The notes below the pieces were generated by a model that made no database searches, had not been told where the DNA came from, and was given only the letters and a program-made list of their open reading frames with translations. From a virus, in IMG/VR virus record IMGVR_UViG_3300020580_000040, positions 1-35,073 of that record: 35,073 bases of DNA; one strand, given 5' to 3'. Positions 7,717-28,331 of the stretch are shown in pieces. The translations under genes and the position numbers were made by a program. How positions within the stretch are numbered: position 1 is the first letter of the stretch; each line of letters starts with the position of its first letter.

Positions 7717-7725
7717 CGTTTTCCT

Positions 7726-8370: not shown

Positions 8371-8409
8371 TCTATTTCCCCATTGTTACGTTATAACGGC
8401 CGATTCCTT

Positions 8410-8844
8410 CTACTGGACGCCTGGCCGCGGCCAGAGTTTGAATCCGCTGAAAACAATTTCGACAACGTTGGGCGCCGCGCTGGTATCCGTGAAGAAAAGC
8501 GAATAGACGCGCGTGGCCGGCATCACGTAGGGTACGGCCAGCGGAAACGAAGCGTTGAGCGTGGCTGTGCCGGCCCAATTATCGATGTTGATGCCGTTGA
8601 AGATGGTTCCGCCGGCTTGCGCTTGCGGCGATGTGCCGATAAAGTCGCGTCCGGTGGCTTGTTCCTTCATTAAAACCTTGAGCAAACTAGACGTGCGGCT
8701 GGCTAGCGTCCACCACCATTCGAAATCCGCATCGGAGAGAATTTGCAGCGCGTTGGGATCTTGTGTGGCCGAGGCCGGCACAGTGCGATCCAGAACATAG
8801 CTGAAATACTGCCGCTCGAATTGATCGTCTAAAGCTGAGTTCAT
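8410..8844 (-). CDS. Beta-rich virion candidate, small
   Basis: 144 aa. Residues about 35-62 contain SDADFEWWW then a helix. The second half has beta segments and a PYVMPATRVYSLFFTD stretch ending in VEIVFSGFKLWP, a terminal strand pattern shared in style with the protein at 7726-8370. The start forms ATGA with the end of the 72-aa gene, so the two are translationally coupled. Probably a structural subunit (inference from composition and place). No homologue can be named. Confidence 0.7.
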   Translation of the reverse strand: MNSALDDQFERQYFSYVLDRTVPASATQDPNALQILSDADFEWWWTLASRTSSLLKVLMKEQATGRDFIGTSPQAQAGGTIFNGINIDNWAGTATLNASFPLAVPYVMPATRVYSLFFTDTSAAPNVVEIVFSGFKLWPRPGVQ

Positions 8845-9059
8845 GTGACTCTCTCCTGTTCCTGCTTAGTGCCTTTGCGCTTGTACCTATCTCGCCACCG
8901 CTGAAATCCCGATTCCGCTTTCGCCGCTACCGCGATCCCGTGCATATCGATCTCGCCGCTACTTTGAAATGCGTGCTGATAGCCGGCTGCTTTCAGTTTC
9001 TCCTTGATCTCTTCATAAGCTGCCGAACTAATTTCAAGAACTGCGTACGTATGCGTCAC
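8841..9059 (-). CDS. Small conserved-looking protein of unknown function
   Basis: 72 aa, alpha/beta, with the pattern YAVLEISSAAYEEIKEKL and a central EIDMHGIAV. I recall similar small proteins (YAVLEV..YDEI...IDMHGIAV) in other phages, without known function. It sits 82 nt after the candidate capsid gene, behind a hairpin, and ends ATGA-coupled to the 144-aa gene. The C-terminus is strongly basic. Confidence 0.65.
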   Translation of the reverse strand: MTHTYAVLEISSAAYEEIKEKLKAAGYQHAFQSSGEIDMHGIAVAAKAESGFQRWRDRYKRKGTKQEQERVT

Positions 9060-9075
9060 CGTTCACCAAAGAAAA

Positions 9076-9139
9076 GATTGAGATTGGCACCTAGCTACCG
9101 TGCGCCGGTTGCTGCCGCGCGCCAAGTTCGATCTCAATC
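9076..9139 (-). terminator. Terminator-like hairpin after the candidate capsid gene
   Basis: Arms 9076-9084 (GATTGAGAT) and 9131-9139 (ATCTCAATC) are perfectly complementary. Read leftwards the hairpin is followed by CTTTTCTTT. The loop is long (46 nt) but GC-rich. It could be a leaky terminator or a 3'-end stabiliser that raises capsid mRNA relative to the downstream genes. Confidence 0.4.
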
Positions 9140-9141
9140 GG

Positions 9142-9930
9142 TTAGAGGATCGCGCGTGCCAGTACCCCTTCGAGGTACACATGCGCGTTGATGCCGGTGC
9201 CGACAACGCCGCCAGTGCCCGCGGTTGGACCCGCAGCCACTGTGGTGAACGCCGCCACGCCGGTGATCGTGGGATCCAGGATCACTGAGAAATTCTGGTT
9301 CTGTTCGATGAGCTGCCCGAGAATGGGTTCCATCTGATCCAAACCAGGAATTTGCGGCATCGGATCGGTGATGCTTGCCACGTTCTGCGCGGACGGCCAT
9401 CCATTGGCGCCAGAAAGAGACGTTTGACTGGTGCCCGCCGCGGTGGTGATCGCTGCGCCGCTGGCAAAAGCGCCAGCCCCCGCAGGCGTCTTGCTCACCA
9501 CCGAGGACCAGTAATTCTTCCCCGAGATGAACAAATCAAACTGCGTCTGGCCAACGAAAGCATTTAGATCCGCTACCGCCACATCGGAGCGCACCAAAGT
9601 TGCCGGCGCCTTCACCAGAAACTTTTTCGGTGCATCCAACATGCCGTTTTGAACCAGGTTGGTGTGATAGCCGGTTTTGATGAACGCCGCGCCGCCCGTT
9701 GGCGTATACGATGAGCCTATCGCCGTGGCGAAGAGTTGTTGCTTCGACAAGAGCGTGGCCACCGCAACACCGTAAAAATCGAAGATCGGCTGTACAAGGT
9801 ACTCGAGCTGACCTGCGACGATCGGGTTTTTGCGGAAGTTCACATATTTCGGCCGTCCCACTTCCCTTTCTTCCATCACGGGCAAATGCGCGTAACGCGA
9901 TTCAAACCGTGTGTTTTGTTTACTGTTCAT
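9142..9930 (-). CDS. Candidate major capsid protein
   Basis: 262 aa from ATG 9930, chosen because GGGGTGAT lies just upstream; an in-frame ATG at 10002 lies inside the structured leader. There is no signal peptide or membrane segment. Segments such as KQQLFATAIG, TNLVQNGMLDAPKKFLVKA, TQFDLFISGKNYW, NFSVILDP and the terminal AHVYLEGVLARAIL alternate as beta strands. I have the impression of related coat proteins with TNM..G.LPAP..F patterns in uncultivated phages. It has the only elaborate 5' RNA structure and a following hairpin, as expected for the most abundant virion protein. Capsid identity is inferred; single or double jelly-roll cannot be told, and HK97 fold is not suggested by any visible motif. 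Confidence 0.6.
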   Translation of the reverse strand: MNSKQNTRFESRYAHLPVMEEREVGRPKYVNFRKNPIVAGQLEYLVQPIFDFYGVAVATLLSKQQLFATAIGSSYTPTGGAAFIKTGYHTNLVQNGMLDAPKKFLVKAPATLVRSDVAVADLNAFVGQTQFDLFISGKNYWSSVVSKTPAGAGAFASGAAITTAAGTSQTSLSGANGWPSAQNVASITDPMPQIPGLDQMEPILGQLIEQNQNFSVILDPTITGVAAFTTVAAGPTAGTGGVVGTGINAHVYLEGVLARAIL

Positions 9931-9972
9931 TTTGAAATCACCCCGCTTTCCGAACGTGAATTTCGAAGCCTG

Positions 9973-10023
9973 CCCGCGCACCTGACTCCGGTTAGGAGTC
10001 ACTCTTACGAGTGAATGCGCGGG
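9973..10023 (-). promoter_or_regulatory. Three-way-junction RNA in the capsid gene leader
   Basis: On the transcribed (minus) strand an 8-bp closing stem (10023-10016 with 9980-9973, CCCGCGCA/TGCGCGGG) encloses two hairpins. One has a 4-bp stem with a GUAA loop, a GNRA-type tetraloop (10012-10001). The other has a 6-bp stem GACUCC/GGAGUC with loop UAACC (10000-9984). It lies between the stop at 10033 and the ATG at 9930. Possible roles are mRNA protection, an RNase processing site or translational control. Confidence 0.6.
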
Positions 10024-10032
10024 GACAGAAAA

Positions 10033-10554
10033 CTACCCGCCGTACCCGCCTGCGTAGCGGCTGCGGAAACGGTGATACCCGAGTTTGCCGTGTGCAGGTG
10101 GTGCCACCAAAACAGGCCCGGACGGAGTTGCAATTAGCGTGCCGGCGCCGCGGTTTACCGGAACGTTTCCCGTGCTTGCGCGCAGGTACTGATCCGAAGC
10201 CGTGGGAATGCCGAACCAGCTCGGCGCATAAAGCCCCAAACCAGGCGTATTGATGCCCGCCTGTTTCAAAGCCTTTAGCACCGTGATGGCAAGCCCGCCT
10301 TTCAGCGCGTCGCCATTGTGGTCGCCGATCATTTTGCCCACGAAGCCCATGCCGATCGCTGCCGCCGCCGAAGCCGCCACGCCCGTCCAGCCAGTGCTGA
10401 AACTCGGCGCAACCATCCCCGGCAGTGCGGCGGCCCCGACTGCGCCCGCAGCCACAAATGCCGCTTCCTTCACGATCCCGCCGGAAAGGCCGAATGGATT
10501 CCTTCGGTGATGCCGGCGATGATGATGCTTTCTGTGATATGCCAAGTTCCTCAC
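10033..10554 (-). CDS. Basic, Gly/Ala-rich membrane protein, probable minor virion protein
   Basis: 173 aa. The extreme N-terminus is His/Arg-rich (residues 7-20) and ends RRNPFG, which fits nucleic-acid or phosphate-backbone contact. Two hydrophobic Gly/Ala-rich segments (about 32-50 and 55-75) follow. TPGLGLYAP at 103-111 carries a GLG element like those in other late proteins. It ends with Arg and Gly-rich residues. The topology resembles small membrane proteins of internal-membrane phages, placed directly upstream of the candidate capsid gene. Role inferred. Confidence 0.7.
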   Translation of the reverse strand: MRNLAYHRKHHHRRHHRRNPFGLSGGIVKEAAFVAAGAVGAAALPGMVAPSFSTGWTGVAASAAAAIGMGFVGKMIGDHNGDALKGGLAITVLKALKQAGINTPGLGLYAPSWFGIPTASDQYLRASTGNVPVNRGAGTLIATPSGPVLVAPPAHGKLGYHRFRSRYAGGYGG

Positions 10555-10593
10555 CCCCTCCCCTATCGCTAACTAACAAAAATCGATGAAACA

Positions 10594-10665
10594 AGTGTTT
10601 CTGAGCTGCTCGAGCTCGAGGCCCTGGCGAGCTCCGCCGGCGGAGCCGCTAACCGCATAAACACT
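10594..10665 (-). promoter_or_regulatory. Palindrome-rich intercistronic RNA element
   Basis: An outer stem (10594-10600 AGTGTTT with 10659-10665 AAACACT) encloses two perfect palindromes: CTCGAGCTCGAG at 10609-10620 and GCTCCGCCGGCGGAGC at 10631-10646. Read leftwards it is followed by a T-rich stretch and then GGGGAGGGGG before the next gene. It could be a leaky terminator or a processing/stability element; no coding sequence is seen in 10555-10701. Confidence 0.45.
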
Positions 10666-10701
10666 GGATTTTCTTTCTTCATACAAATGTTGCACTTTCC
10701 T

Positions 10702-11394
10702 CTACGCAGCCATGAATGCGCCGCTGGCGAAATATGCTTCCAGGTTGCCTTCGCGATCCATCGGATCGGGATTCACAAGCAATGCCGCTTTCAAATGCGT
10801 AGCCGGATCCGTGATGCACTTGATCTTTCCGAATCCGCCTTTTTTTATGTCCTGTGATCCCACCATCACACAAAGTTCCGTCAACGGCTGGATCACAAGA
10901 AACCATTTTCCGCGGGAATCCCTGATGCGGCCGCAAGCCCGCGATTCAATTTTCTGCTCAATACGCGGCGCAATGTCCCCCGCTTTTTTCGGGATCCACA
11001 ACGGATCCGGAATGCTTGGCAGCGGCGTAAGCCCTTGCGGCAGTAGCAAATCGTTTTTGTCTCGGCTGATGGCAATTTTCGGCCCGTTGCGATGTGTGAG
11101 CCAATCTAAAGTAAGGTTCACCCAGGTAGCGGCTTGCCATTCGGAAAACGGCGCCATCACACCAGATTGTTTCCCTTGACTGAAAATCTTTTCTTGCTCG
11201 AGACTCTGCCAACGCGGACGCGATTGGCTGATGCCGGCGGTGGGAAGTTGCCGCTCGATCACAATCGTGGTAAGGATCGCGAAATTCTGATACTCGCGGT
11301 TGCGGATGCGCTCTTGCTGGATGCGCAGTTTATCCGCTAGCCGAAACATCTGCGTGGGCACGATCACCGTTGGTGCTTGCGCTGCTGTCGCCAT
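10702..11394 (-). CDS. Unknown late protein
   Basis: 230 aa, soluble, no signal peptide. The N-terminal 60 residues look helical with IQQERIRNREYQNFAILTTI. The middle has paired aromatics (ATWVNLTLDWLTH) and the C-terminal third is mixed alpha/beta. The ATG follows the stop of a putative 25-codon ORF without spacing. Located between the 389-aa protein and the basic membrane protein, so a capsid-associated or assembly factor is likely. No motif recognised. Confidence 0.65.
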   Translation of the reverse strand: MATAAQAPTVIVPTQMFRLADKLRIQQERIRNREYQNFAILTTIVIERQLPTAGISQSRPRWQSLEQEKIFSQGKQSGVMAPFSEWQAATWVNLTLDWLTHRNGPKIAISRDKNDLLLPQGLTPLPSIPDPLWIPKKAGDIAPRIEQKIESRACGRIRDSRGKWFLVIQPLTELCVMVGSQDIKKGGFGKIKCITDPATHLKAALLVNPDPMDREGNLEAYFASGAFMAA

Positions 11395-11472
11395 TTAACC
11401 CTTTCCCATTTCCTTCCGCCGCTGTTCTTCGGCATTTTCTGCCGCTAGATTCCGCTCGCACAGCGACGGCAC
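11395..11472 (-). CDS. Possible 25-codon gene in an otherwise empty 100-nt gap
   Basis: GTG at 11472 opens a 25-codon frame ending TAA directly before the next ATG (TAAATG). The peptide is charged and helical (AAENAEEQRRKEMGKG). The exact abutment fits the packing of this operon, but the start is weak and the length very short. It may instead be spacer. Confidence 0.3.
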   Translation of the reverse strand: MPSLCERNLAAENAEEQRRKEMGKG

Positions 11473-11494
11473 AGGCGAAGTTTCCGAGCTCGCC

Positions 11495-12664
11495 CTAATT
11501 TCTTATCCACGGCCCTTCGATGCGATAGTCTCCGCCTTCGTAGAGTAGCCGTTTGGTGCGCGTGTCAAATAAAACTGTGGGCAATTCTCCGTTTTCTTCG
11601 CCGTGTTCGTGCTTCCACAGATCTTCGTCTGGTGAAGCCACATGTTCCTTGCGGCACTGATAATCGATGCGGCGCCCTTTGCCGAGCTCGACAATTCCGT
11701 TTCCTCTGTCAATGGCGCCGAACGCCGCAAGAGCTGCTGTCACATCCTGCGCACCGTCGACAAAATAGATTTGCCGCGCGCTCGAGTCACACACCACTAG
11801 CGGCGGTTTGCCGCCCCACGCTGCCGGGAATTCATGGCCCACGGCTTCCGCGGCGCCGATGCGTTGCACCTGGCCACCCTTTGCCGGCTTGATATAAAGC
11901 GCGATGAGCGGCCCGAGTTTCGCGTAACGGCCGCGCGGCATGTGCGGCTCGTTATAAATGTCCATGTACTCCACTTCGCGGCCGGTAAACTCTTCCACGA
12001 TCTCTTCCGTGGGCGGATTCGGCGCGCTCACCACTTCCACACGGGGATTCGCGCCCATGATGAGCAGCTCTGCGGGATTAGGTTGTTGGCCATTGTTTCT
12101 TAGCTTACGAATCAGATGGCGAAATTCTGGCTTGATCGCTGCAATCGCTTCTGCTTTAGTACGGAAAATCGTTGCTAGGTTGCCAGGAATTCCCCATCGT
12201 ATTTTTCCTTTGTCGTAGAGTGAATCTGTCGGGTTGTGGCTGCCGCCCTTCGCTCGAGTAATGGCTTCTTTCAGGCTACGCACAGCGGCGGCTTTAGATT
12301 CGCCAGTGCCCACCATATTCCCGTATTTCGATAGGTACTTATGCGCCATGTATTTCTGAATCGATGGATCGAACACAATGCGGCGAGGATTCCGGCCGCT
12401 GGCGGCGCGGATTTGCGCGGCGCGATCGCGAGTTTCGCGTTTCTTTTGCAATGCGCTCACATCGCGAGGGTTTATCCCGCTCGCTTCCGCCATACGAAGA
12501 ATCTCTGGCCAGCTTTTCCCTTGTGCAAGTACTTCGGGATCCCGCTTCACGTAAGCACGGATCAGCTTCCCTGCTTTGCGACGATCGCCGGAAAACACGG
12601 CTTGCTGCAGCCACGTTTTAAGGTGTTTTTTGGTGAAAGCGTCCATATTGCGGCGGCGCTTCAT
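11495..12664 (-). CDS. Unknown late protein, two-part architecture
   Basis: 389 aa. The N-terminal half is helical and basic (residues 1-100, with KKHLKTWLQQAVFSGDRRKA) and includes a segment NMVGTGESKAAAVRSLKEAI. After LIMGANPRVEVV (about 210-220) comes an EEFTGREVEYMDIY...LGPLIALYI stretch, then an alpha/beta C-terminal part ending LPTVLFDTRTKRLLYEGGDY. I have the impression of this C-terminal organisation in other uncultivated phage genomes but cannot name a family. It starts with ATGA overlap to the preceding gene. No portal or terminase motif is seen. Confidence 0.7.
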   Translation of the reverse strand: MKRRRNMDAFTKKHLKTWLQQAVFSGDRRKAGKLIRAYVKRDPEVLAQGKSWPEILRMAEASGINPRDVSALQKKRETRDRAAQIRAASGRNPRRIVFDPSIQKYMAHKYLSKYGNMVGTGESKAAAVRSLKEAITRAKGGSHNPTDSLYDKGKIRWGIPGNLATIFRTKAEAIAAIKPEFRHLIRKLRNNGQQPNPAELLIMGANPRVEVVSAPNPPTEEIVEEFTGREVEYMDIYNEPHMPRGRYAKLGPLIALYIKPAKGGQVQRIGAAEAVGHEFPAAWGGKPPLVVCDSSARQIYFVDGAQDVTAALAAFGAIDRGNGIVELGKGRRIDYQCRKEHVASPDEDLWKHEHGEENGELPTVLFDTRTKRLLYEGGDYRIEGPWIRN

Positions 12665-13107
12665 GTGGCTTGCACCGCCGTGGGGTTTGATACTTCGATG
12701 TAAAGCGATTCGCTATGCCCGCCGATCGCGCTTCGCCAGCCTACATGCAACGCTTTCCAGGCCAGCCCTTCGGCGGCGTCCGCTTCCTCTGCCGTCAAGG
12801 CATAACCTTCGCCGGCAAGTGGCCCGCCCGTTTCGCGGAATCCTTTTTCCAGTGCATCGCACGCCGCCAGATAATCGCTGTGCTCATCTGGTACGGGAAT
12901 GTTTCCCGTATAAAAGTCGATGATGTAAAAAAGATAGCTATGCGCGCGTTCCTGATCGTTCGATAGACGCACACTTAGATCTACTCTTGGCCCATAGTTC
13001 GTCTCTTTCATACGGTGGACGTGGCCGAGCTCGATAGACTTCACCGGCTTGCCGGCTTTCCAATCGTCCAGCGCTTTGAGCACATCGGCTTTGATCTTCG
13101 CACTCAT
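12661..13107 (-). CDS. Unknown late protein
   Basis: 148 aa, acidic, soluble. The first 35 residues look helical, then a beta region (YGPRVDLSVRLSNDQERAHS) and an acidic helix TAEEADAAEGLAWKAL. It is separated by 2 nt from the TUDOR-like gene and coupled by ATGA to the 389-aa gene. No motif recognised. Confidence 0.65.
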   Translation of the reverse strand: MSAKIKADVLKALDDWKAGKPVKSIELGHVHRMKETNYGPRVDLSVRLSNDQERAHSYLFYIIDFYTGNIPVPDEHSDYLAACDALEKGFRETGGPLAGEGYALTAEEADAAEGLAWKALHVGWRSAIGGHSESLYIEVSNPTAVQAT

Positions 13108-13109
13108 CG

Positions 13110-13355
13110 TTAAATAGCTTTTCCGTTCACCGTGGTGTAACTCGTCGCGCCAGATTGTGCGGCGTTTTCCGCCGGCGTCTCGAGCGGCGTCATATCCGCC
13201 ACGCTCGCGTGCTCCACATGCCCTTCGATTCCGTCGACGGCGATCTCTGCAAGTTTTCCGTCTTCTAAGAAATTTTTGATCGTGCCGGTAAGTTTCACGG
13301 CTTTGTTGCTCATACGCAGGAAACTAACTCGATCGCCTACTTTTGGATCGCTCAT
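13110..13355 (-). CDS. Small SH3/TUDOR-like barrel protein
   Basis: 81 aa. Residues 1-57 have the hydrophobic pattern of a small beta barrel (KVGDRVSF, LTGTIKNFLEDGKLAEIAV, GHVEHASVADMTPL), reminiscent of TUDOR/KOW-type domains such as DUF2945. The tail is low-complexity. ATGA-coupled to the preceding membrane protein. A scaffold or binding role is possible; not established. Confidence 0.55.
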   Translation of the reverse strand: MSDPKVGDRVSFLRMSNKAVKLTGTIKNFLEDGKLAEIAVDGIEGHVEHASVADMTPLETPAENAAQSGATSYTTVNGKAI

Positions 13356-14326
13356 CGGCGGCGCCCCCCACTAAAAAGATTCGGCAGTACAATCAACGCG
13401 CCGGCGCCCACCGCCAGCCACATGGCATTCCCTGTTAGCCACGTCTCGAGCGCCGTCATTGGCGTGGCGCCAGTGGGCACAGCAGTTTTTTGCAACGTGG
13501 CGAGAATCGCATTCGCTGTTACGGTGTCACCCTTCGCCTGCGCATCTTTCAGCGCTACGATTAAACTAGCGTTCGTGGCAGCGGTGGAAGTCTGCTGCGC
13601 TGCACCTGTCTGCGCCACGATCGTTTGCACATTGATCGAAGCCTGCCACGTCTTAAATGCCTGATACGCGAAATACGCGCCCACAATAAAAACGGCCGCG
13701 CCGGCCACCCAAATCAGAACGGGCGCGATGCCCAAGCCAGAAAGCCCTGGCGGCGTGGATCCCATCATCATCGTGTAGAACTGCACAAATTGCGGCGTGA
13801 TGGAATTGTATTGTGCGCGCTGCTGCACGATCTGCTGCCCGAGCTGAATAAACGCCTGATTGCCCGCTTGCGGCCCGGCCGCCTGGTACTGCGCTTCCAA
13901 AGTTTTTAGAGCGCTATTCCAGTCCTGCAACATGCCGGTGAAGCCAGACCAGGAATTCTGATCCGTGGGATCGATGCCGATCGCGTCCGTAAAAGACATA
14001 GAGCCGCTGGTGATCGCTTCGTGCTGCGCCAGCGTGATGGAACCATTCAGATAAAGTTCATCCGCCGCGGCGGCTGTAGTATCGGAAGCATCGCCCATAT
14101 CCCCGAGGCCATGCAGTCCGGAAGGACGTTCGTACAGTTCCCAGGGATCGAACGGGCGATTAAATTCGTATTCACCAAGCCCATGCAGATGCCACGCGCT
14201 GGGAAGAAAAGGATTGTGCCCTTGATCGTCGCGCCAGCCGGAAAGCTGTGCGGCGCATTGCGCATTCGTGGCGCCGTAGGGACGAAAGCCCACTTTGCTG
14301 GCTGTGTCTGCTTCCATGTAGGCCAT
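13352..14326 (-). CDS. Tail-anchored virion candidate with three GLG motifs
   Basis: 324 aa. Near the N-terminus it carries WHLHGLG (45-51) and LHGLG (71-75), then a helical region (about 85-185, Gln/Ala-rich), LSGLG at 195-199, and a membrane segment APVLIWVAGAAVFIVGAYFA. After a Thr/Ala-rich helical segment it ends in a second membrane segment (MWLAVGAGALIVLPNLF) with an RRR tail. The start overlaps the previous stop as TAATG. A structural protein embedded in an internal membrane is inferred. Confidence 0.75.
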   Translation of the reverse strand: MAYMEADTASKVGFRPYGATNAQCAAQLSGWRDDQGHNPFLPSAWHLHGLGEYEFNRPFDPWELYERPSGLHGLGDMGDASDTTAAAADELYLNGSITLAQHEAITSGSMSFTDAIGIDPTDQNSWSGFTGMLQDWNSALKTLEAQYQAAGPQAGNQAFIQLGQQIVQQRAQYNSITPQFVQFYTMMMGSTPPGLSGLGIAPVLIWVAGAAVFIVGAYFAYQAFKTWQASINVQTIVAQTGAAQQTSTAATNASLIVALKDAQAKGDTVTANAILATLQKTAVPTGATPMTALETWLTGNAMWLAVGAGALIVLPNLFSGGRRR

Positions 14327-14865
14327 TATTTTGACCCCATCGCGAAGGCGGCAACGGCCGCGGCCGCGAGTAATACGAAATTCGGCACGCCGGGAATTAC
14401 CGTGGCGGCTGTAAGAGGATTCGCAGCGCCAGGCACGGCCGGCACAGCTACCCGCGGCGATGGCGCCGTGGTTAAACCTTGTGCGGCTTTTGCGGTGTTC
14501 GCGCCAGCCGTCATCAGTTGCGCAATGGCGGATGTGGCTTGCGCCGGCGTCATCGTGCCGGAAGCTACGGAGTTTCTATAAAGAGTCGCTAGCGCTTGAT
14601 CTTGCGGGCTGAGCGAGGAAACCGGTGCGACAAGGCCGCCAGTGGGATCGTACATCGATGGATCGATAGGCGTGACGGCGGGGATCGATGGCAGGAAAGG
14701 TACGCCATTATCACTAGCAAACGATGGCGGAATCAAATCGCCCGAGGGATCGTACATCGTGGGATCGCCACCATCCTGCCCAAGATGCCACTCGATCGCG
14801 CCGAGTCCGCGCATGTAAATCGGGATCGGTGAAGTCCTAACGGTGTGTGGATGGCCGGCGATCAT
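14326..14865 (-). CDS. Tail-anchored virion candidate
   Basis: 179 aa. The N-terminus has MRGLGAIEWHLG (18-29). Two related segments follow (MYDPSGDLIPP and MYDPTGGLVAP), an internal duplication. Then come an Ala-rich helix and a C-terminal hydrophobic anchor, PNFVLLAAAAVAAFAMGSK. This tail is clearly similar to that of the 338-aa neighbour (PNWGLVAAAA...MGGSKHR), so the two are partial paralogues. Coupled by ATGA upstream and TAATG downstream. Spike-base or membrane-linked virion protein is inferred. Confidence 0.7.
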   Translation of the reverse strand: MIAGHPHTVRTSPIPIYMRGLGAIEWHLGQDGGDPTMYDPSGDLIPPSFASDNGVPFLPSIPAVTPIDPSMYDPTGGLVAPVSSLSPQDQALATLYRNSVASGTMTPAQATSAIAQLMTAGANTAKAAQGLTTAPSPRVAVPAVPGAANPLTAATVIPGVPNFVLLAAAAVAAFAMGSK

Positions 14866-15878
14866 CGGTGTTTACTCCCGCCCATCAGCATCGCAGCGGC
14901 AGCGGCAGCGGCGGCCACTAATCCCCAATTCGGGATAGACGGAAAGAGCGAGCTCGGTTGCTCAAGCCACGTCATTGCGCCGGCAGCAGTGAAGCCAGTG
15001 TTTGGCGCAGTGAGTTGCATAGTCGCCGGATTTTGCGCAACGGCAGACGCGGGAACGATCTGTCCGGTGGAAAGATTCATGTAATTGCCGCTACCATCGT
15101 TAAGCGGAATCACCTGGTTAGTAGCCACGGTGGGCGCCGGCGCAGGCGAAACCGGTGGCGCAGTGTAAACAGGAATGGCCGGCGAAGGCGGCGCCGGCGT
15201 GAGCGTGCCCGGCGGTTGATTCACCACGCTGGTGGCGCCCGTCGACGGTGCAAACCCCTCACCAGTACCCGAGCTGGCAGGCGTGGCTGGATATTTTGGT
15301 GCCACCGGTGCGGCTACGGTATTCGGTGGCGGCGCCGGCAAAACCGGCAACGGTCCAGGCATCGGCCCTTGATAGAAAATCGGCCCGCCGCGCAACGGCA
15401 GGCGAACTATGTCGCTACCGTTATCGATGAAAGCGGCACCGAGAAGGCTCGAAGCGATCTCGCCTGGCGTTGGCGTGAAGTAGCGCGGCATATTTTCCGC
15501 CAGCGAAAGAAAATCATCTTCGCCCGTCTCTTTGAAATCCGCGGGAAAGGATCCTGGCGCAACGGATTGGCCGGCATGATGCCGCGTCTGAGATCCGCGA
15601 TAAGTGGCCGCCGATCCGGAAGCATTCGGCCGCGGCGGTACTTCCGCCGAGCTGCGATAAACGCCGCGAGGGTTGCGCCGCGAAGCGTGGACGGAATCGT
15701 GAGAAGACATACCATCGCCGCGATCCATTTCGTAATCGTCTTGAGGAAGTATCGTGGTGCCGGCGGCTTGTGTGTGTGTGAAGCCTTTCGAATGTCCACC
15801 AGCCGGCCCGCCTGGCAGAGTGAGCCGCCAACCTGGATACGCGAAGTCCACAACGGCTTGATAAGCGCCAATCGTCAT
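14862..15878 (-). CDS. Pro/Ala-rich tail-anchored virion candidate
   Basis: 338 aa from ATG 15878, chosen because it overlaps the preceding stop as ATGA; an in-frame ATG at 15926 lies inside that gene. The N-terminal 120 residues are polar with many His, Arg and Ser. The middle (about 190-270) is an extended Pro/Ala linker containing PNTVAAP, shared with the protein at 6754-7716. The end is PNWGLVAAAAAAAAMLM followed by GGSKHR, a membrane anchor with a basic tail. Likely an elongated virion protein anchored in a membrane. Confidence 0.7.
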   Translation of the reverse strand: MTIGAYQAVVDFAYPGWRLTLPGGPAGGHSKGFTHTQAAGTTILPQDDYEMDRGDGMSSHDSVHASRRNPRGVYRSSAEVPPRPNASGSAATYRGSQTRHHAGQSVAPGSFPADFKETGEDDFLSLAENMPRYFTPTPGEIASSLLGAAFIDNGSDIVRLPLRGGPIFYQGPMPGPLPVLPAPPPNTVAAPVAPKYPATPASSGTGEGFAPSTGATSVVNQPPGTLTPAPPSPAIPVYTAPPVSPAPAPTVATNQVIPLNDGSGNYMNLSTGQIVPASAVAQNPATMQLTAPNTGFTAAGAMTWLEQPSSLFPSIPNWGLVAAAAAAAAMLMGGSKHR

Positions 15879-16768
15879 CGGTGTTTTTCCATCATCATCG
15901 CTGCGCCGACAAGTAGCGCGCCCCACAGCAGCCAGTTGGAACTGCCCGACAATGCAATGGCTGGCTGCGGTGCAGCGTAACCCGCAGGAATCATTCCAGG
16001 GGAATACGCCGTTTGAAACGAAGCGTAAGGCCCGCTCGAGTAACTAAATGGACTGGCCGGCATGCCTTGCGATGCGCGAATGATATCCGCGAATCCCTGA
16101 TCCACTGTAGCGATCGTGGAAGAGGTTATCTCTCCGGAAGCGGCGTCTCCCATCGTGCGGTGGCGATTCACGCTGCCATAAGTTCCTAAACCGCTTACAT
16201 GCGATTTGAAACGCGGATAATTTCCGAGCAGCCCACGCAAATCCCCTTGCGAATTGTCGGAAAGACTCCACCAACGCGCTCGAGTGAACGCCGGCGGCGC
16301 AACTCCAAACTGCGAATCACTGCGCGCGGGATCCATCGGGATCCACTGGCCATCGATCTGCCCCTCTACGTACACATGCGAAAAATCATCGCCGTTTGCG
16401 GCCACCGTCATCAGCCGCGCGGGATATCCCACCGCCATCAGCAGCGTGCCGAGCAACATTGAGATATCGTCGCAATCCCCCGAGCGGATCTGCAGCAGCT
16501 CTGCCGGCGGATACAGCGTCTCTTTGTTGACGGGATCTTTCGTAAAACGGATGTTACTTCGCACCCAATCGTAAAGCGCGCGCGCTTCCGAATAATCATC
16601 GAAAGCAGGAACACCGCGCACGATATCTTTGGCGGCGCGGAGAATGGAAGGATCGCGCAGCGCTTCGTCTACCAAACCGCGCATTTGATCGATGGTTTGT
16701 GCCACGCCAGCATCGCCGTTTAGCAACGGCGCGCGATAAATCGGCGAAGGCGGAAAGGCGATCGGCAT
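15875..16768 (-). CDS. Transglutaminase-like cysteine enzyme with C-terminal membrane anchor
   Basis: 297 aa, first gene of the leftward arm. A transglutaminase-like core spans about 60-150 with the expected triad: Cys99 in RSGDCDD, His131 in FSHVYVE and Asp146 in WIPMDPA. After the core come VSGLG (191-195) and a Ser/Pro/Ala stretch. The end is SNWLLWGALLVGAAMMMEKHR, a membrane anchor like its neighbours. The fold class includes peptidases and cross-linking enzymes, so capsid protein maturation, cross-linking or cell-wall processing are all possible. Its neighbours carry GLG motifs that could be substrates, which is inference. Confidence 0.8.
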   Translation of the reverse strand: MPIAFPPSPIYRAPLLNGDAGVAQTIDQMRGLVDEALRDPSILRAAKDIVRGVPAFDDYSEARALYDWVRSNIRFTKDPVNKETLYPPAELLQIRSGDCDDISMLLGTLLMAVGYPARLMTVAANGDDFSHVYVEGQIDGQWIPMDPARSDSQFGVAPPAFTRARWWSLSDNSQGDLRGLLGNYPRFKSHVSGLGTYGSVNRHRTMGDAASGEITSSTIATVDQGFADIIRASQGMPASPFSYSSGPYASFQTAYSPGMIPAGYAAPQPAIALSGSSNWLLWGALLVGAAMMMEKHR

Positions 16769-16963: not shown

Positions 16964-18319
16964 GTGGCAACTACTTCTAGTCCAGTCGTTGAAAAGGTTA
17001 CAAGAACGCGCACAGTACCCCCCGCCGAGCTCGCAAAAGAAAACACGAACACAATGCCCGATTTTTGGGAGTACATCGAATCGCTCGAGCCATCGCAATG
17101 GGAGCGCGAAGATCATGTGGTGTATTTGTACCGCGAGGATCCTAAAGACTCGACATATTCCACGGAGCCGAGCTACGTTGACAAATTTTCAGGAACAATC
17201 GAAATCTTTCCAGGCGGCCCAAGCTATCAAATGAACGATCGCGGAATCATCGAACACGCGATTAAGGAAAAGCATGGCGGCAAAGCGTTTCGCCTGATCT
17301 GCAAGAAAGGAAAGCAGCGCATCGCGATCGGGAAATGCGTCAACGGCGCCCCGCCGAAATATCCGGACACGAATCCGCAGCGCTTACCATTGCCGCACGC
17401 CATGCCAACGGATGCCAGCGTGGCTTCGAAAGCGATCGATGCGATGGCCAATCAGCAGCCAGACGCCATGCGCCTGGCGATGGAAGTACTTCGCAGCGCT
17501 TCCGAAATTGTGATGCGCACGGCCAATCCACCAACGCAGACGCCCACGCCGCCGCAGCGCGATCCGTTAGTGGAAGCACTTTTGCAAAGAGCATTGAATC
17601 CGCCAGCGCCACCGGATCCGTTCGAGATGTTCGTAAAGTTTAAGAATCTGATGGGCGATAGCGGCGGTGGCATGGCCGGCAATCCGCAGCTAATGGATAA
17701 AGTGCTCAGCGCGGCCGTTGATAAGATCCTGAATCCCGTGGCGCCAGTAACCGGCCGCACCACGCTACTCGATATCGGCCGAGAATTTATTCCAGTGTTG
17801 GGGACAGTCATGCACGAATATCGTTTGTCTCGCGAAGCAGATGCACGCATCACGGAGATCCAACGCAGCGCCATGCCCGCACAGCCGGCGCCGGCTGTAC
17901 CTGCGGCCGCTTTGCCGCCGGCACCTGCGCCGCAGCCCGTTCCCCAAGCCGCGCCGAATCCGCCAGCAGCACCTGCGCTAACATTTCCACAGATCGAAGC
18001 GCACATCACGAAAATCATCACGAATCTGCAATACACTACAGATGAAGCCGTGGACAAAGTTCTAGAATTTCTCTACGATACGGATCCGCGCATAGTGGCC
18101 GCACTGCTAAATCCGCCATCGATAAATGCGCAACTCAAGCCAGGCAAAGAGGGATTGCTAGTTCTTTTCCAAGTCGAGGCGGAATTGAATCCGTGCCTTA
18201 ACAATGTCCCGCGGCTTTCTGAGTTCCTGGATAAATTCATCGCACAAGCCACGGAAGAGGAAGCCGCCGAAGCGCGCCTGCGCGCCGCGGCGCCGGCCCC
18301 CGGCACAAAACCCGCGTAA
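16964..18319 (+). CDS. Unknown first early protein, helical with Pro/Ala linker
   Basis: 451 aa from GTG 16964, chosen because AAAGG lies 6 nt upstream and all upstream codons lie in the promoter/operator; an in-frame ATG at 16841 precedes the promoter. The N-terminal domain (about 30-130) contains MPDFWEYIESLEPSQW, VVYLYRED and KHGGKAFRLICKKGKQRI. A helical region follows, then a Pro/Ala linker and a helical C-terminal domain. I recall the FW-Y-L...HGG-YRL pattern in other phage proteins of unknown function. Promoter-proximal place suggests a regulator or replication accessory. Confidence 0.7.
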   Translation: MATTSSPVVEKVTRTRTVPPAELAKENTNTMPDFWEYIESLEPSQWEREDHVVYLYREDPKDSTYSTEPSYVDKFSGTIEIFPGGPSYQMNDRGIIEHAIKEKHGGKAFRLICKKGKQRIAIGKCVNGAPPKYPDTNPQRLPLPHAMPTDASVASKAIDAMANQQPDAMRLAMEVLRSASEIVMRTANPPTQTPTPPQRDPLVEALLQRALNPPAPPDPFEMFVKFKNLMGDSGGGMAGNPQLMDKVLSAAVDKILNPVAPVTGRTTLLDIGREFIPVLGTVMHEYRLSREADARITEIQRSAMPAQPAPAVPAAALPPAPAPQPVPQAAPNPPAAPALTFPQIEAHITKIITNLQYTTDEAVDKVLEFLYDTDPRIVAALLNPPSINAQLKPGKEGLLVLFQVEAELNPCLNNVPRLSEFLDKFIAQATEEEAAEARLRAAAPAPGTKPA

Positions 18320-18484: not shown

Positions 18485-19903
18485 ATGTCATCAGATCCCC
18501 GCTCACGAACTAGTGCCGATAATCCGCCGCCGCAAAATATAGACGCGGAGCGCGCCATACTCGGCACAATCCTGCAAAACAATGCCGCGCTTGCCTCTAT
18601 CGCCAAAATTCTCTATTCCGGTGATTTTTTCCACCAGCATCACCAGGTGATCTTCCGCCACATGCTGCGCCTGGCCGATGCCGGCGCGCCTGTCGAGCTC
18701 GTTACGCTTTCGGATTCGCTACACCAAGAACATACGATCGAAACCGCCGGCGGCGATGCCTACTTGGCTTCGCTGGCCGATGGCATGATGCGTGTCTCGA
18801 ACGTGGAGCACTACGCGAAGATAGTGAAAGAAAAATCCCGCCTGCGCGAAATCATCCGCGCCACTCACGATCTGCAGCAGCAAGCATGGGCGAAAGATGG
18901 CAGCTCCGTGCAGATCTTCGCGGACCTGGCCGAATTCCTGAAAATGTCCAGCAACGGCCACGGCGATAATTCTTTAATTGCCGTCGACGTTTTAGACTTT
19001 CTGCAGATGAAGCTGGATCCCATCGATTTTGTGATTGAGCCGATACTTCCCGTGAGCAACTCCGCCATGATCTTCGCGCCCACCGGCGTTGGTAAAACGT
19101 ACATCATGCTGCACATGGCCTACTCTGTAGCAATCGGCGCGCTGAATTGTTTTGTTTGGGATATCCCGCATGCCCGGCCCGTGCTCTACGTCGACGGCGA
19201 AATGGATCAGCTCACCCTGCAGGAACGGCTTAACGAAATCGTGAAAGCGTTTCTGCCGGTGACGCCGCAGCACGGCTATATGAAAGTGATCACGCCAGAT
19301 CAGCAGCCTAAGTTCCCGCCGCGGATCAACACCAAAGAAGGCCGCGCGCGGATCGAGGAGCATCTATCACCGGGCGCCTTCTGCATCCTGGATAACATTG
19401 TCACTCTTTGCCCTGGCGGCGATGAGAAAGAATCGGAAGACTGGTCTGTGATCCAGGAATGGATTTTGTATCTGCGGCGGAATCGCATCAGCTTATTTAT
19501 GGTGCAGCACGCCGGCAAGAGCGGAGATCAGATCGGCACATCGAAAAAAGAAATTCAGCTTTCCTGTAACATCAAACTGCGCAATCAAAATCACTACACG
19601 CCAGAAGACGGGTTGCGCGTCGAGGCGCGGCTAACAAAACTGCGGCGCCGCGGCAAGGATGGCCGGTGGGATCCGCGGTGGGCACAGCCGTTTGAGATCG
19701 CCTATAAAGTGAACGAAGGCGCGGCAGAGTTCACCACGCGCCCGATGAAAGGCATCCTCAAAAAGCAAGCCGTGGAATTACTGGTGGCGGGCGCCCATCC
19801 CAAAGAAGTGATGGAAGCCACTGGGCTCGATCGCTTCGTGGTCTATCGCTTAAAGAAAACCCTCAAAGATCAAGGTATCGCCGCCGCGGAAGCGTCCGAA
19901 TAG
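18485..19903 (+). CDS. DnaB/RepA-like replicative helicase
   Basis: 472 aa from ATG 18485, chosen because it gives the usual short lead into a DnaB N-terminal domain (NIDAERAILGTIL) and lies past the leader hairpin. Order: DnaB-type N-terminal helical domain (about 17-125); RecA-like ATPase with Walker A APTGVGKT (198-205), YVDGEM (235-240) and Walker B FCILDN (about 299-304); and a C-terminal winged-helix-like segment (about 425-465). The ATPase resembles the RepA/AAA_25 branch rather than classical DnaB. Likely unwinds phage DNA at replication start. It is followed directly by the iteron region. Confidence 0.85.
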   Translation: MSSDPRSRTSADNPPPQNIDAERAILGTILQNNAALASIAKILYSGDFFHQHHQVIFRHMLRLADAGAPVELVTLSDSLHQEHTIETAGGDAYLASLADGMMRVSNVEHYAKIVKEKSRLREIIRATHDLQQQAWAKDGSSVQIFADLAEFLKMSSNGHGDNSLIAVDVLDFLQMKLDPIDFVIEPILPVSNSAMIFAPTGVGKTYIMLHMAYSVAIGALNCFVWDIPHARPVLYVDGEMDQLTLQERLNEIVKAFLPVTPQHGYMKVITPDQQPKFPPRINTKEGRARIEEHLSPGAFCILDNIVTLCPGGDEKESEDWSVIQEWILYLRRNRISLFMVQHAGKSGDQIGTSKKEIQLSCNIKLRNQNHYTPEDGLRVEARLTKLRRRGKDGRWDPRWAQPFEIAYKVNEGAAEFTTRPMKGILKKQAVELLVAGAHPKEVMEATGLDRFVVYRLKKTLKDQGIAAAEASE

Positions 19904-20425
19904 CGTTCGGATAGCGTATTCCCATATATATTTTTTCTCAAGATCAGGTGATTGTGCGCACCAGATCGCACGTGCGAAACGCACATACCCCTATGTGCGA
20001 TTTGTCTCTGTAACTCCTTTAGAATCTATAACCCTTGTGCGATGTATGTGCGATGTATATACATTTTTTACGTGTAAGTGCTTTAGTTTCAGTAAAAGGT
20101 GCGTTTTTGTGTGCGAAGTGTGTGTGTGTGTACCCCCTAAATTTGCCCGAAACGCACATCCCTACCCCCCCCCGGTATACTGTCAGAATTATCTGGCAGT
20201 AGTAGGATGGAATGTTTTTTCACACTCTCCCGCACAAAAAGACTCTAACTCTTTTCTTTTCTTTAGAGAGCGTAAAACTACCGCACATCTTTCCGGCTAA
20301 ACCCTTTGTTTCCGTAAGCCGCTCCGCCGATCCGCACAAGCCATTCGCACATCGCGCACATGCCTATGTATATTAGACTTAACGCCGAGATCAATTTTAA
20401 TTGACGTGCGCGGCGAAAATAGTGC
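19904..20425. repeat. Iteron array, candidate replication origin
   Basis: Non-coding, AT-richer DNA. The hexamer TGTGCG occurs at 19953, 19994, 20036, 20047 and 20110; its complement CGCACA at 19980, 20153, 20231, 20282, 20333, 20346 and 20355. Two copies form an 11-bp tandem repeat (TGTGCGATGTA, 20036-20057). Two more form a perfect 8-bp inverted repeat with a CCCC loop (19980-19999). AT-rich tracts (19924-19936, 20054-20070), a C9 run near 20165, an imperfect palindrome (20178-20201) and TCAATT/AATTGA (20391-20404) are also present. Iterons beside a helicase gene fit an origin; a control region is the alternative. Confidence 0.65.
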
Positions 20426-20454
20426 TTGACATTTAATCGTAAATATCGTATTGT
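20426..20454 (+). promoter_or_regulatory. Promoter for the second part of the early arm
   Basis: TTGACA (20426-20431), a 17-bp spacer and TATTGT (20449-20454). Transcription would start near 20461, so an ATG at 20461 would be leaderless. The GTG at 20479 instead has a proper ribosome site. Confidence 0.65.
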
Positions 20455-20478
20455 TCGTATATGTCAAGAGGTAAGCAG

Positions 20479-20826
20479 GTGCGGGCGTTAAGGCCCGATC
20501 AAATCGCACGCCTGGCGGCTTTTAAGAAGGCGGCGCATCCAGAGCATGGCGCCCCTCACGGTTACAGCTATCCACAGCTACGGATGGCGATGGCGGCATC
20601 CTTCCGGTGGGAGACACTCAAGAAAGCGCTTGGCGGGCTTCCTGTGTGGGATCTGCACCATAGCTATATCGTTGACTGGATTGAGCGATACTTGCCCGCG
20701 GCGCCGGCCGCCGTCGACGGCAAAGCGGCTGCCAGTGGTGAACGTGAAACAGAAGAGGCATCGGGCGATGGCGAGCCAAACGAAGAGGAAGCCGGCACAA
20801 CTGGAACTATTCGCGGGAGCCGGTGA
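20479..20826 (+). CDS. Small HTH-like protein, possible regulator
   Basis: 115 aa from GTG 20479, chosen because AAGAGGT lies 6-8 nt upstream; the in-frame ATG at 20461 coincides with the expected transcription start. Residues about 35-75 (YPQLRMAMAASFRWETLKK and following) have a helix-turn-helix-like spacing. The last 40 residues are low-complexity and acidic and overlap another possible gene. Position right behind a promoter and origin suggests a transcription or copy control factor, unproven. Confidence 0.6.
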   Translation: MRALRPDQIARLAAFKKAAHPEHGAPHGYSYPQLRMAMAASFRWETLKKALGGLPVWDLHHSYIVDWIERYLPAAPAAVDGKAAASGERETEEASGDGEPNEEEAGTTGTIRGSR

Positions 20827-22115: not shown

Positions 22116-22366
22116 ACGCCGAAGAGATCCGAAAGACGGAGCAGCCGAGCCACAAGAGCGATCCTCACACTGCCGCTGTTTTCTGGCTTCGCGAGATTGC
22201 CGCGCAGCTCGCAGAACTAAACGCGGGGAATGCTGCGAGCGCAATGCTAAAGAAGATCGAAGTGATATCCCTGCGGACGTGTAACTCAGAGCGAGACTTA
22301 GCAGTTACTCTGGAAAGTATCCGCCATTTATTCTACGAAAAACAAAGAGAGAACTATAGGACGTGA
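22112..22366 (+). CDS. Small helical protein of unknown function
   Basis: 84 aa, predicted all-helical (AVFWLREIAAQLAELNAG...LTLESIRHLFYEKQ). Coupled by ATGA to the preceding gene and by GTGA to the ATPase gene, so it may act with or regulate the ATPase. Not recognised. Confidence 0.6.
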   Translation: MNAEEIRKTEQPSHKSDPHTAAVFWLREIAAQLAELNAGNAASAMLKKIEVISLRTCNSERDLAVTLESIRHLFYEKQRENYRT

Positions 22367-24165
22367 GCGGATCGATCCATCTTGGCTATGTGGTGGGCAC
22401 AGGTGAGCCCGTGGAGATCCCGCTACGCCATACGGCCGTCACCGGGCAAACGCAGGAATCCGGAAAAACTACCACGCTCGAGGGATTGATCCATCGCTCT
22501 GGATTGCAGGCAGTGGCCTACGTCACCAAACGCGGTGAATCTAGTTTCCACGTGATGCGGCCGATCCCGCCCTACTTCCAGGAACGCGCAGACTGGAAAT
22601 TCGTGCAATCACTGCTCGAGGCGTCCACCGAAACGAAATTAAAATTCGAACAGAGTTGGATCATGCGCGCCAGTGAAGGCGCCAAAACGCTGCAGGATGT
22701 GCAGACGAATATCAAGCGCTTTCTAGAAGGCGTCAAAGAGCCGCGCGCTTTGCCGCGCCGCGGGCGCAATCCAAACCGGACAGATCAGAAGGAAGTGAAA
22801 GAACGCTGGCTGCAAAAGCCGGCGCGCGGGCTTTCCGGCGATGTGTATTACGTCCTAAACAAATACCTGGACGATATCATGCCGCAGCTCGCCGAGATGC
22901 CGTACACCACCGCGCTCGAGCTGGCCGATGGGCTGAATGTGATGGATCTGCGCGATTATGAATTCCCCCTGCAAGCGCTGGTGATCCGTTCCGTCACCGA
23001 TCGGATACGGCAGCACCTGGAAGGAACGATCAATATCATCCCCGAAGCGTGGAAGTTTGCGCCGAAGTTTCGTGGCTCGCCCGTGCGCCTGGCGGCGGAA
23101 GAATACGTGCGCGAAGCCGCGGCTATGAAAAACTTCCTCTGGATCGATTCGCAGGATCTGGCCGGCGTGGCGGATGTGCTGATGCGCCAGGTGGGCGTCT
23201 GGCTCTTTGGCGTGCAGCGCGCCACGCGGGAGATCTGGCGCGCGCTCGAGCACATGCCCGAGGGTTTGCCGGCAAAGCGGCCGCGGCCGGCGGATATCGC
23301 TACGCTCAGTAAAGGCCAGTTCTATGTTTGCTTTGGGAAAGAGATGTACAAAGTTTATGTGCAGCCGGCGTGGATGACGGCCGCACACGCGGAAGCGATC
23401 GCCCGCGGGGAAGAGGATGTGGAATCCGCCCGCGAGATTTTAAAGGAGTACGCACATGGTGCAAATCAAAAGCAAGCCGTGGCCGCCGCCCACAAGCGAA
23501 GCGGATCTGCGGAAGTGGTGCCGGCAAGCGAAGTGGTTTCAGTGTCTCGGCTGCAATCCGGTGAAGTTTCTGAAAGCGGATCAGGTGATCCCGCATTTAA
23601 TGGCAACGCACAGCGTGGCGATGATCCAGCCGGTAGCGCCGAAAGCGAGGAAGCCATGTGGAAAGAAAAGTACGAAGAGTTAAAGAAAGAATTCGATCTT
23701 TTGACCGCGCGGATGCGTGTGGTGCCCGTGGGACCTCCAGCCAATGGCGCGCCCGTGATTCGCGGCGAAATGGCAGAATGGTTCGAAAAGTTTCCCGCTG
23801 ATTCGCTTGAAGCCACATACCAGTACATTCGAAAACGGCTGCGCGAGGAGAATCCTCAAGATCTCCTGGCGATAATGAAAAAACCAGAGATGCGAGTCCA
23901 GATTGAACGGCCGGTGCTCACGATCGAAGGCAATACCCTGCAGGGACGGATGGCCCAACTGGTGAGTGAAGGATTTTTCAAACAAGCGCAAAGCGCGAAA
24001 GTTGCTACCGCGGAAGCGGTACGCCGCGGCTGGTGTCACCCGAAAACGCCGTTTATGCGTGTCCAGGATCCACTGGACAAACTAACCGGGATGGGCTTCC
24101 TCACACGCGAAGCCGATGGCTATCTGATCGTTCCAGGCATGAAAATCAACATCACGGAGGCGTGA
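22363..24165 (+). CDS. FtsK/HerA-like ATPase, candidate genome packaging motor
   Basis: 600 aa from GTG 22363 (GTGA overlap). Walker A GQTQESGKT at 28-36, Walker B NIIPEAW with the catalytic Glu at 228, and a downstream IDSQDLAGVADVLMRQ segment (from 261) that fits the sensor region of the HerA/FtsK/VirB4 group. The ATPase part ends near 365. A low-complexity linker (about 366-425), a coiled coil (MWKEKYEELKKEFDLL) and a winged-helix-like C-terminus follow. In tailless membrane phages an ATPase of this class packages DNA. Its place in the early arm also allows a helicase or conjugation-like role. No terminase exists elsewhere in the window, which supports packaging. The linker overlaps a plausible second gene. 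Confidence 0.75.
   Translation: MSGSIHLGYVVGTGEPVEIPLRHTAVTGQTQESGKTTTLEGLIHRSGLQAVAYVTKRGESSFHVMRPIPPYFQERADWKFVQSLLEASTETKLKFEQSWIMRASEGAKTLQDVQTNIKRFLEGVKEPRALPRRGRNPNRTDQKEVKERWLQKPARGLSGDVYYVLNKYLDDIMPQLAEMPYTTALELADGLNVMDLRDYEFPLQALVIRSVTDRIRQHLEGTINIIPEAWKFAPKFRGSPVRLAAEEYVREAAAMKNFLWIDSQDLAGVADVLMRQVGVWLFGVQRATREIWRALEHMPEGLPAKRPRPADIATLSKGQFYVCFGKEMYKVYVQPAWMTAAHAEAIARGEEDVESAREILKEYAHGANQKQAVAAAHKRSGSAEVVPASEVVSVSRLQSGEVSESGSGDPAFNGNAQRGDDPAGSAESEEAMWKEKYEELKKEFDLLTARMRVVPVGPPANGAPVIRGEMAEWFEKFPADSLEATYQYIRKRLREENPQDLLAIMKKPEMRVQIERPVLTIEGNTLQGRMAQLVSEGFFKQAQSAKVATAEAVRRGWCHPKTPFMRVQDPLDKLTGMGFLTREADGYLIVPGMKINITEA
23456..23683 (+). CDS. Probable zinc-finger gene nested in the ATPase linker
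   Basis: 75 aa in another frame. It has its own strong ribosome site (AAAGGAG, 7 nt before ATG 23456) and a C2H2-like motif, CLGC then HLMATH (C-x2-C-x13-H-x3-H). The ATPase frame over the same bases translates to a low-complexity Ser/Gly/Glu linker, as expected if it is the secondary frame. A third start (ATG 23656, GAGGAAG upstream) could restart the C-terminal domain. Either true dual coding or a gene fusion by read-through is possible. Confidence 0.55.
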   Translation: MVQIKSKPWPPPTSEADLRKWCRQAKWFQCLGCNPVKFLKADQVIPHLMATHSVAMIQPVAPKARKPCGKKSTKS

Positions 24166-26100: not shown

Positions 26101-27012
26101 ATGGGTAAAACGTCGATCGAATGGACGGATGCAAGCTGGAATCCGATCGTAGGCTGTACGGAGATCTCTCCTGGCTGTGCCAACTGCTACGCTGCACGGC
26201 TGAGCGCTTCACGCCTGGCCCATAATCCTGCATACAATGGACTGGCCACGATCCAGACGGAAGGATCCTTGCGCGGCCAGCGGCATGTGCGCTGGACTGG
26301 CGAAGTGCGTTTCCTGCCCGAGCGGCTCGAGGAACCATTGCATTGGAAAAAGCCGCGGCGGATCTTCGTCTGCGATATGGGCGATCTTTTCCACGAAGAC
26401 GTTGGCATCGATCAGATCGTAAAAGTTCTCGATGTAATCGATAAATGCCCGCAGCACACATTCCAGATTCTCACTAAGCGCGCCGATCGGATGAACGGGG
26501 TTATGCGGCACTATCCAGTGAAGCCCAACGGATGGCTCGGCGTGAGCGTGGAAAATCAGACGATGGCCGATAAGCGCATCCCTTATCTGCTCGATACGCC
26601 GGCGGCGGTGCGCTTTCTTTCCTGCGAGCCGCTGCTAGGACTAGTGAAAATCGCCGAGCGACTATCGGCGCCTTGTAACTGCGCTCTAAAGAATAGCTTT
26701 GGCGAGTATGCCAGGCATGCCCCTACATGCCACGTTCGCCGGCGAATCGATTGGATCATCGCCGGCGGAGAAAGCGGCCCGCACGCCAGGCCAATGCCGC
26801 CGGATGCAGTGCGATCGCTGCGTGATCAATGCCAGGCAGCCGGCATACCCTTCTTTTTTAAACAGTGGGGAGAATTCGCGCCCACTCGAGGCACGGAAAG
26901 CGGCCGCCTATTCGCCGGCGTGAATATCGGCGATCAGCTCATGCTGCGCTACGGCAAGAAAAGATCTGGCCGGCTGCTGGATGGAAGGGAATGGAATGAA
27001 TTTCCTAAATAG
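26101..27012 (+). CDS. DUF5131 (phage Gp37/Gp68) family protein
   Basis: 303 aa, typical family length. The opening SIEWTDASWNPIVGC, the three-Cys cluster C19-x6-C26-x2-C29 (PGCANCYA), FVCDMGDLFHE, FQILTKRADR, SVENQ and the end FFFKQWGEF are diagnostic. The Cys cluster suggests an iron-sulfur site related to radical SAM enzymes, but the reaction is unknown. The family is frequent in phages and also occurs with the partner TcmP, which is absent here. Might modify DNA or RNA; neighbour of an ASCH gene. Confidence 0.9.
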   Translation: MGKTSIEWTDASWNPIVGCTEISPGCANCYAARLSASRLAHNPAYNGLATIQTEGSLRGQRHVRWTGEVRFLPERLEEPLHWKKPRRIFVCDMGDLFHEDVGIDQIVKVLDVIDKCPQHTFQILTKRADRMNGVMRHYPVKPNGWLGVSVENQTMADKRIPYLLDTPAAVRFLSCEPLLGLVKIAERLSAPCNCALKNSFGEYARHAPTCHVRRRIDWIIAGGESGPHARPMPPDAVRSLRDQCQAAGIPFFFKQWGEFAPTRGTESGRLFAGVNIGDQLMLRYGKKRSGRLLDGREWNEFPK

Positions 27013-28256: not shown

Positions 28257-28331
28257 TGGTAGCGGCGGCGGGAATCGAACCCGCTACAGCGAGGTTATGA
28301 ATCTCGCCTGCATCCGGAGCAGCTCACCGCT
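28257..28331 (-). tRNA. tRNA-Met (anticodon CAT), CCA encoded
   Basis: 75 nt on the minus strand. Acceptor AGCGGTG/CGCCGCT (one G-U), D arm CTGC-TCCGGAT-GCAG, anticodon arm CGAGA-TTCATAA-CCTCG (A31-C39 mismatch), 5-nt variable loop, T arm GCGGG-TTCGATT-CCCGC, discriminator A and encoded CCA. The paired A1-U72 argues against an initiator; elongator Met or lysidine-type Ile2 cannot be separated by eye. It follows the last late gene by 6 nt, so it is probably cut from the late transcript. Confidence 0.85.

Follow-up and report, generated by a model that had tools for sequence, protein, structure and literature searches.

Bacterial replicative helicases of the hexameric RecA-fold type classically depend on separate initiators and loaders to put them onto DNA, and cellular DnaB requires both. 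Iteron plasmids and the lambdoid O/P origins likewise use a separate initiator to bind their iterons. In satellite phage P4, the alpha protein is helicase and origin-binding initiator at once, and the repeats concerned (ori/crr) are short. The closest working parallel to the locus described here is the Rep-ori module of SaPI and PICI elements, for which we used SaPI Rep and SCCmec Cch2 as the comparison set (PMC7581432, PMC6092414). The C-terminal domain of SaPI Rep recognizes iterons downstream of its own gene (PMC7581432).

The viral module resembles this Rep-ori layout, with an unrelated helicase family. Both systems have short iterons directly downstream of a helicase gene and iteron sequences that differ between members. 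Two further resemblances are tentative: the C-terminal recognition domain of SaPI Rep has a putative counterpart here, suggested by weak HTH_23 matches and a three-helix model, and iteron sets around an A+T-rich stretch may have one in a single lineage, with the core TGTGCG. SaPI-type Reps are D5/DUF927 helicases, whereas the viral protein combines a DnaB N-terminal domain, AAA_25 and a homeodomain-like helix-turn-helix (HTH) and showed no D5 (Primase_Cterm)/DUF927 feature; because of this domain make-up we place the viral system outside the SaPI/PICI modules. It also differs from them in residing in virus genomes of 31–46 kb, with no recognized primase beside the helicase. P4 alpha is similar in that one protein serves as helicase and initiator, as we propose for the viral helicase, but it carries a primase and belongs to another helicase class. 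Members of the DnaB family (PF00772; structures such as 4esv and 2r6a) have the N-terminal domain in common with the viral protein, which departs from them in its AAA_25 ATPase part and its added C-terminal HTH. Iteron plasmids and lambdoid O/P systems share the placement of short-repeat arrays beside replication genes. At several other DnaB-like helicase loci the hexamer clusters are found on the upstream side of the helicase instead, as expected where the iterons sit within a separate initiator gene.

The iteron array and the genome that carries it

The window, by which we mean the whole stretch of DNA analysed, comprises the 35,073 bp of a virus record. Since its two ends repeat each other over 152 bp with 99.3% identity, the genome (G000) appears to be a circle of 34,921 bp, in line with the 34.9-kb circle of the original prediction. 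The half carrying minus-strand genes (774–16768) is nearly devoid of recognizable families, and no terminase, portal or capsid match was found among its scanned genes with Pfam and PHROGs; it ends with a Transglutaminase-like protein (PF01841, E=2e-15; 15875–16768, minus strand) that is divergent from the replication genes. Elsewhere the window holds a single tRNA-Met (CAT) gene (28257–28331, minus strand), a homologue (26101–27012, E=1e-101) of PHROG 2045, a widespread viral protein without known function for which viral contigs contain at least 599 relatives, and a 600-aa protein (22363–24165) with the P-loop-like motif GQTQESGKTTT. The latter matched no significant Pfam or PHROG family, and has homologues in G001, G002, G004 and G005 (see below) as well as in two helicase-less contigs of 46–48 kb.

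A 557-bp non-coding gap without a convincing gene (19904–20460) follows the helicase gene. It contains exactly 12 copies of TGTGCG/CGCACA, spanning 19953–20360: five copies lie on the plus strand (starting at 19953, 19994, 20036, 20047 and 20110) and seven on the minus strand (19980, 20153, 20231, 20282, 20333, 20346 and 20355), giving the left-to-right order + - + + + + - - - - - -. When gaps were simulated with a first-order Markov model trained on this gap (5,000 runs), the mean was 0.41 copies and the maximum 5, against the 12 observed, and the top count for any hexamer was 6. In other 408-bp stretches of the window any hexamer reaches at most 7 copies, and TGTGCG outside the array is at background level (41 in the whole window vs 30 +/- 6 expected). 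This agrees with the twelve copies in 408 bp and the fraction of one expected by chance (~0.4 here) that had been predicted, and the simulated maximum together with the non-coding setting leads us to reject an array of chance or coding repeats. A search for an RNA element was also negative, with no Rfam family near its gathering score.

The tandem 11-mer pair and the perfect inverted pair that had been described are both present. The tandem pair, two copies of TGTGCGATGTA (20036–20057, plus strand), is kept with its 11-nt spacing in three relatives (G001, G002 and G005). The inverted pair, CGCACATA-cccc-TATGTGCG (19980–19999), has arms of 8 bp each (19980–19987 and 19992–19999) and is not kept in G002 or G005. 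Further to the right are a pyrimidine tract with short complementary ends, CTCTAACTCTTTTCTTTTCTTTAGAG (20243–20268, plus strand), which follows the start of an inverted iteron by 17 nt, is found in all seven arrays compared here and is a possible melting or loading site; a triplet of inverted iterons (20333–20360, minus strand) spaced by 13 and 9 nt; and a degenerate thirteenth iteron, CGTGCG (20405–20410, plus strand), 21 nt before a -35 box. At the position of this degenerate copy, G002, G004, G006 and G019 have an exact core. A second repeat family, TAAGTCCTTTGTTTTCAATA-like, has weak copies in most arrays, mainly on the plus strand, and is suggestive only.

The original prediction also saw a polarity switch, with direct copies on the left and inverted copies on the right. 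The bias is modest in this genome (rank test p=0.015) and cleaner in G001 (p=0.001). Within the TGTGCG lineage there are two clusters of opposite polarity, with blocks of 62–70% A+T between or inside them, while iterons in the other lineages have mostly one orientation. The switch thus stands for the TGTGCG lineage but not as a feature of the family, being absent or different in the other relatives.

Related viruses keep the array and change its letters

A search with the helicase yielded two close relatives, G001 (91% identity) and G002 (76%), and further searches added G005, G004, G006 and G019. Each of these six contigs has a homologous helicase and, in non-coding DNA downstream of it, an array of a single hexamer, so the repeats are conserved beside the helicase in seven genomes, and the possibility raised with the prediction, that relatives might lack them, is answered. 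The core is TGTGCG in G000, G001, G002 and G005, TGTAGC in G004 and TGTCTC in G006 and G019; the seven genomes represent only three types of core and about three clades of helicase.

When the arrays were aligned with the three cores treated as equivalent, six homologous positions emerged, and the genome’s own core was found at 42/42 sites, 36 of them exact and 6 with one mismatch; the triplet spacing and the distances can also be read from the unaligned positions. Five of the positions are exact in G000 (20231, 20282, 20333, 20346 and 20355). The first begins 17–19 nt ahead of the pyrimidine tract, the second lies about 52 nt ahead of the triplet, and the triplet itself is the most conserved part of the array, with a spacing of 12–13 and 9–10 nt in all seven genomes. 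The sixth is 51 nt past the triplet and 19–23 nt before a TTGACA box, again in 7/7. At the triplet, foreign cores mismatch at 2–3 of 6 letters. Because the geometry is kept while the letters have changed in concert, these are best read as binding sites following a changing protein. DNA structure or chance does not explain such a conserved geometry with a concerted change of core, and on these sequence comparisons we consider it almost certain that the array consists of protein-binding sites whose specificity has changed as a set.

Between the helicase and the array there is nothing in G000 and a further gene in the relatives (L002:7422-8342, L104:943-2136, L102:3790-4095, L105:4030-4179 and L185:7523-7804), making this slot a cargo site across the genomes. 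In G001 it is occupied by a D12 adenine methylase, with a similar ORF in G002; G005 has an HNH-like ORF there and G004 a C5 cytosine methylase. G006 carries the helicase HTH as a 49-aa copy, and G019 an unassigned ORF.

A scan for additional arrays with the conserved pyrimidine tract gave 37 matches, five of which were known family members; those inspected among the others were coincidences in coding sequence, L222 and L233 included. These two were chance finds, in that their Rep gene happens to contain a match to the tract pattern. L222 is PICI-like and has 11 copies of TGTGAC in about 300 bp, next to a helicase gene of D5 type with D5_N (array at 2171–2468 in reverse-complement orientation, the Rep gene reading in from the right). 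L233 is a second PICI-like element with a TGTGAC array beside a D5-type Rep gene. Both are independent look-alikes of the array architecture. A remote helicase relative in G020 (29% identity) has an HTH-like C-terminal tail; here a dense tandem array of AACGAC, 38 copies in 450 bp, lies inside the upstream gene (L109:4125-4600), with no array downstream.

The helicase and other candidate binders

The helicase gene (18485–19903, plus strand) encodes a DnaB N-terminal domain (PF00772, E=7e-30) and an AAA_25 (RecA-like) ATPase (PF13481, E=2e-17), the sole matches above cut-off, followed by a C-terminal HTH. For the RecA-like part AAA_25 is reported rather than DnaB_C. The best fold and sequence matches are nevertheless to DnaB, and a PDB profile match to DnaB spans profile positions 15–325. 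Its adjacency to the array had been predicted and holds in G000 and, as described above, downstream of the homologous genes; it is the only replication gene recognized. Searches of cellular genomes with the helicase returned only two remote partial matches (22–26% identity), and in phage GenBank records only the DnaB-like part found matches, at less than 60% identity and none covering 80% of the protein.

The proposed iteron-binding domain is a homeodomain-like HTH of about 45 residues (residues 422–465; 19748–19879, plus strand). It is modelled as three helices (422–434, 439–446 and 450–463) with pLDDT of about 65–77, within a helicase model of moderate confidence (60.6 overall). HTH_23 matched all seven HTH sequences scanned (best 1.8e-4) and HTH_28 matched three members (best 3.5e-5), these matches being individually weak and below the Pfam cut-offs. 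In G006, the free-standing copy between helicase and array is 53% identical over 43 aa.

Three pairs of genomes bear on which protein the iterons follow. G006 and G019 have the TGTCTC core in common and 100% identical HTHs, while their N-domains are only 48% identical, their slot genes differ, and the gene that follows the array encodes an XRE-like protein in G006 and a ribbon-helix-helix protein in G019. The pair G001 and G002 differs little in the upstream protein (97.8% identical), the N-domain (95%) or the start of the downstream protein (98% over 50 aa), and much more in the RecA part (78%) and the HTH (49%); the seventh iteron base, mostly A in G001, is mostly G in G002 (G at 2 of 12 iterons against 11 of 13; Fisher p=0.0012). 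G000 and G001, with similar preferences at that base, are alike in RecA (97%) and HTH (95%), and only 68% identical in the upstream protein. The comparison shows that changes in the iteron core go with the RecA and HTH part of the helicase, and that the flanking genes do not track them. Since the part of the gene encoding RecA and HTH lies close to the array, this co-inheritance could reflect linkage without contact. We nonetheless think it likely, from these covarying sequences, that the neighbouring helicase is the iteron binder, by way of its C-terminal HTH. The original prediction had recognized no dedicated iteron-binding Rep and suggested that the initiator may be new; we correct this by naming the helicase as the best candidate.

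The same origin could instead be bound by the 451-aa product of the conserved gene upstream (16964–18319, plus strand) or by a host factor, either of which would then recruit the helicase. That gene immediately precedes the helicase gene and has homologues in every genome aligned, including those with the TGTAGC (G004) and TGTCTC (G006) cores, and classical iteron replicons keep initiator and helicase separate. However, no domain, and specifically no DNA-binding domain, was recognized in the protein, and its low-confidence model (overall pLDDT 51) shows a small alpha/beta domain, a low-confidence middle and a helical C-terminus. Because it is 97.8% identical between two genomes with different seventh iteron bases, G001 and G002, it is disfavoured as the binder. 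As to a host factor, the one DnaA-box-like match in the window is no excess over chance (1.5 expected), for which reason we also reject a DnaA-box origin. Recognition by another protein is unlikely. The small protein encoded after the array (20461–20826, plus strand; 20479 in the original prediction) is homologous in G001, G002, G005 and G004 and is likewise disfavoured, because different genes replace it in G006 and G019 while the TGTCTC core stays. In G001 its gene (L002:8874-9229) has an apparent frameshift, with 50 aa followed by another frame.

Probable origin function and a proposed initiation mechanism

With its many short-repeat copies in non-coding DNA, beside a replication gene and conserved in relatives, the array has the make-up of an iteron-type origin. 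The cumulative GC-skew minimum of the closed circle falls at 20386, 26 bp past the last iteron. It lies about 1.7 kb from the array in G005, if that contig closes, and elsewhere than the array in G001, G002, G004, G006 and G019. The skew check proposed originally thus points to the array in G000 and gives no consistent signal in the relatives; because they disagree, we weigh it as weak support and do not take it as proof. The predicted iteron origin itself is supported by the conservation of array and helicase in seven genomes together with the minimum in G000, and we conclude that the array is probably the replication origin.

The promoter after the array suggests another use for the sites. 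It is Sigma-70-like (TTGACA-17-TATTGT; 20426–20454, plus strand), serves the downstream gene and is almost invariant in G000, G001 and G002, and the core copy 19–23 nt before the TTGACA box in all seven genomes would suit a multi-operator array that regulates the operon after it and perhaps the helicase too, without acting as an origin. Twelve sites in 400 bp far exceed the needs of one promoter, though, and the downstream gene varies (P0003 type, XRE-like or ribbon-helix-helix) while core and geometry stay; the replicative-helicase neighbourhood and the skew minimum also favour an origin. We therefore regard control of transcription as the sole function as quite unlikely. The promoter-start region (20426–20465, TTGACAnnnAATCGTAAATATCGTATTGTTCGTATATG) is nearly invariant in the same three genomes, with TCGTA repeated, and may serve the downstream protein as an operator.

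Centromere arrays likewise consist of many short repeats, and the ribbon-helix-helix protein encoded downstream in G019 would be compatible with a segregation site; a packaging-recognition site of short repeats can be envisaged in the same way. Yet the downstream gene is not constant among genomes with a common core, and no ParA/ParM or terminase was recognized near the array, so that we find a segregation or packaging role very improbable.

Our preferred reading is that the array is the origin and is bound by the helicase’s own HTH. We give this a probability of roughly 0.55, the two parts of the claim being linked. Initiator and replicative helicase would then be one protein, encoded immediately upstream of the array. 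The HTHs of a hexameric helicase would bind several of the 6–7-bp sites at once, in both orientations; the complex would distort and melt DNA between the clusters or next to them, at an A+T-rich or a pyrimidine tract; and helicase rings would be put onto the separated strands. Through the copy 19–23 nt before the downstream -35 box the helicase might also sense or control that promoter, and the degenerate copy at 20405–20410 may in this way tie initiation to expression of the downstream genes. More tentative, and to our minds just short of an even chance, is the full proposal that a DnaB/RecA-fold helicase finds its own origin through a C-terminal HTH, with no separate initiator or loader, the cores changing as a set while the layout is kept.

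If this is true, the presence of an origin-recognition domain within a DnaB-like helicase would merge the roles of initiator, loader and helicase, in parallel to SaPI Rep, which has an unrelated helicase class. The family is also a natural experiment, with three iteron cores at fixed positions and matching HTH variants, and these variants could show which amino acids determine origin recognition and by what route replicons acquire new specificities.
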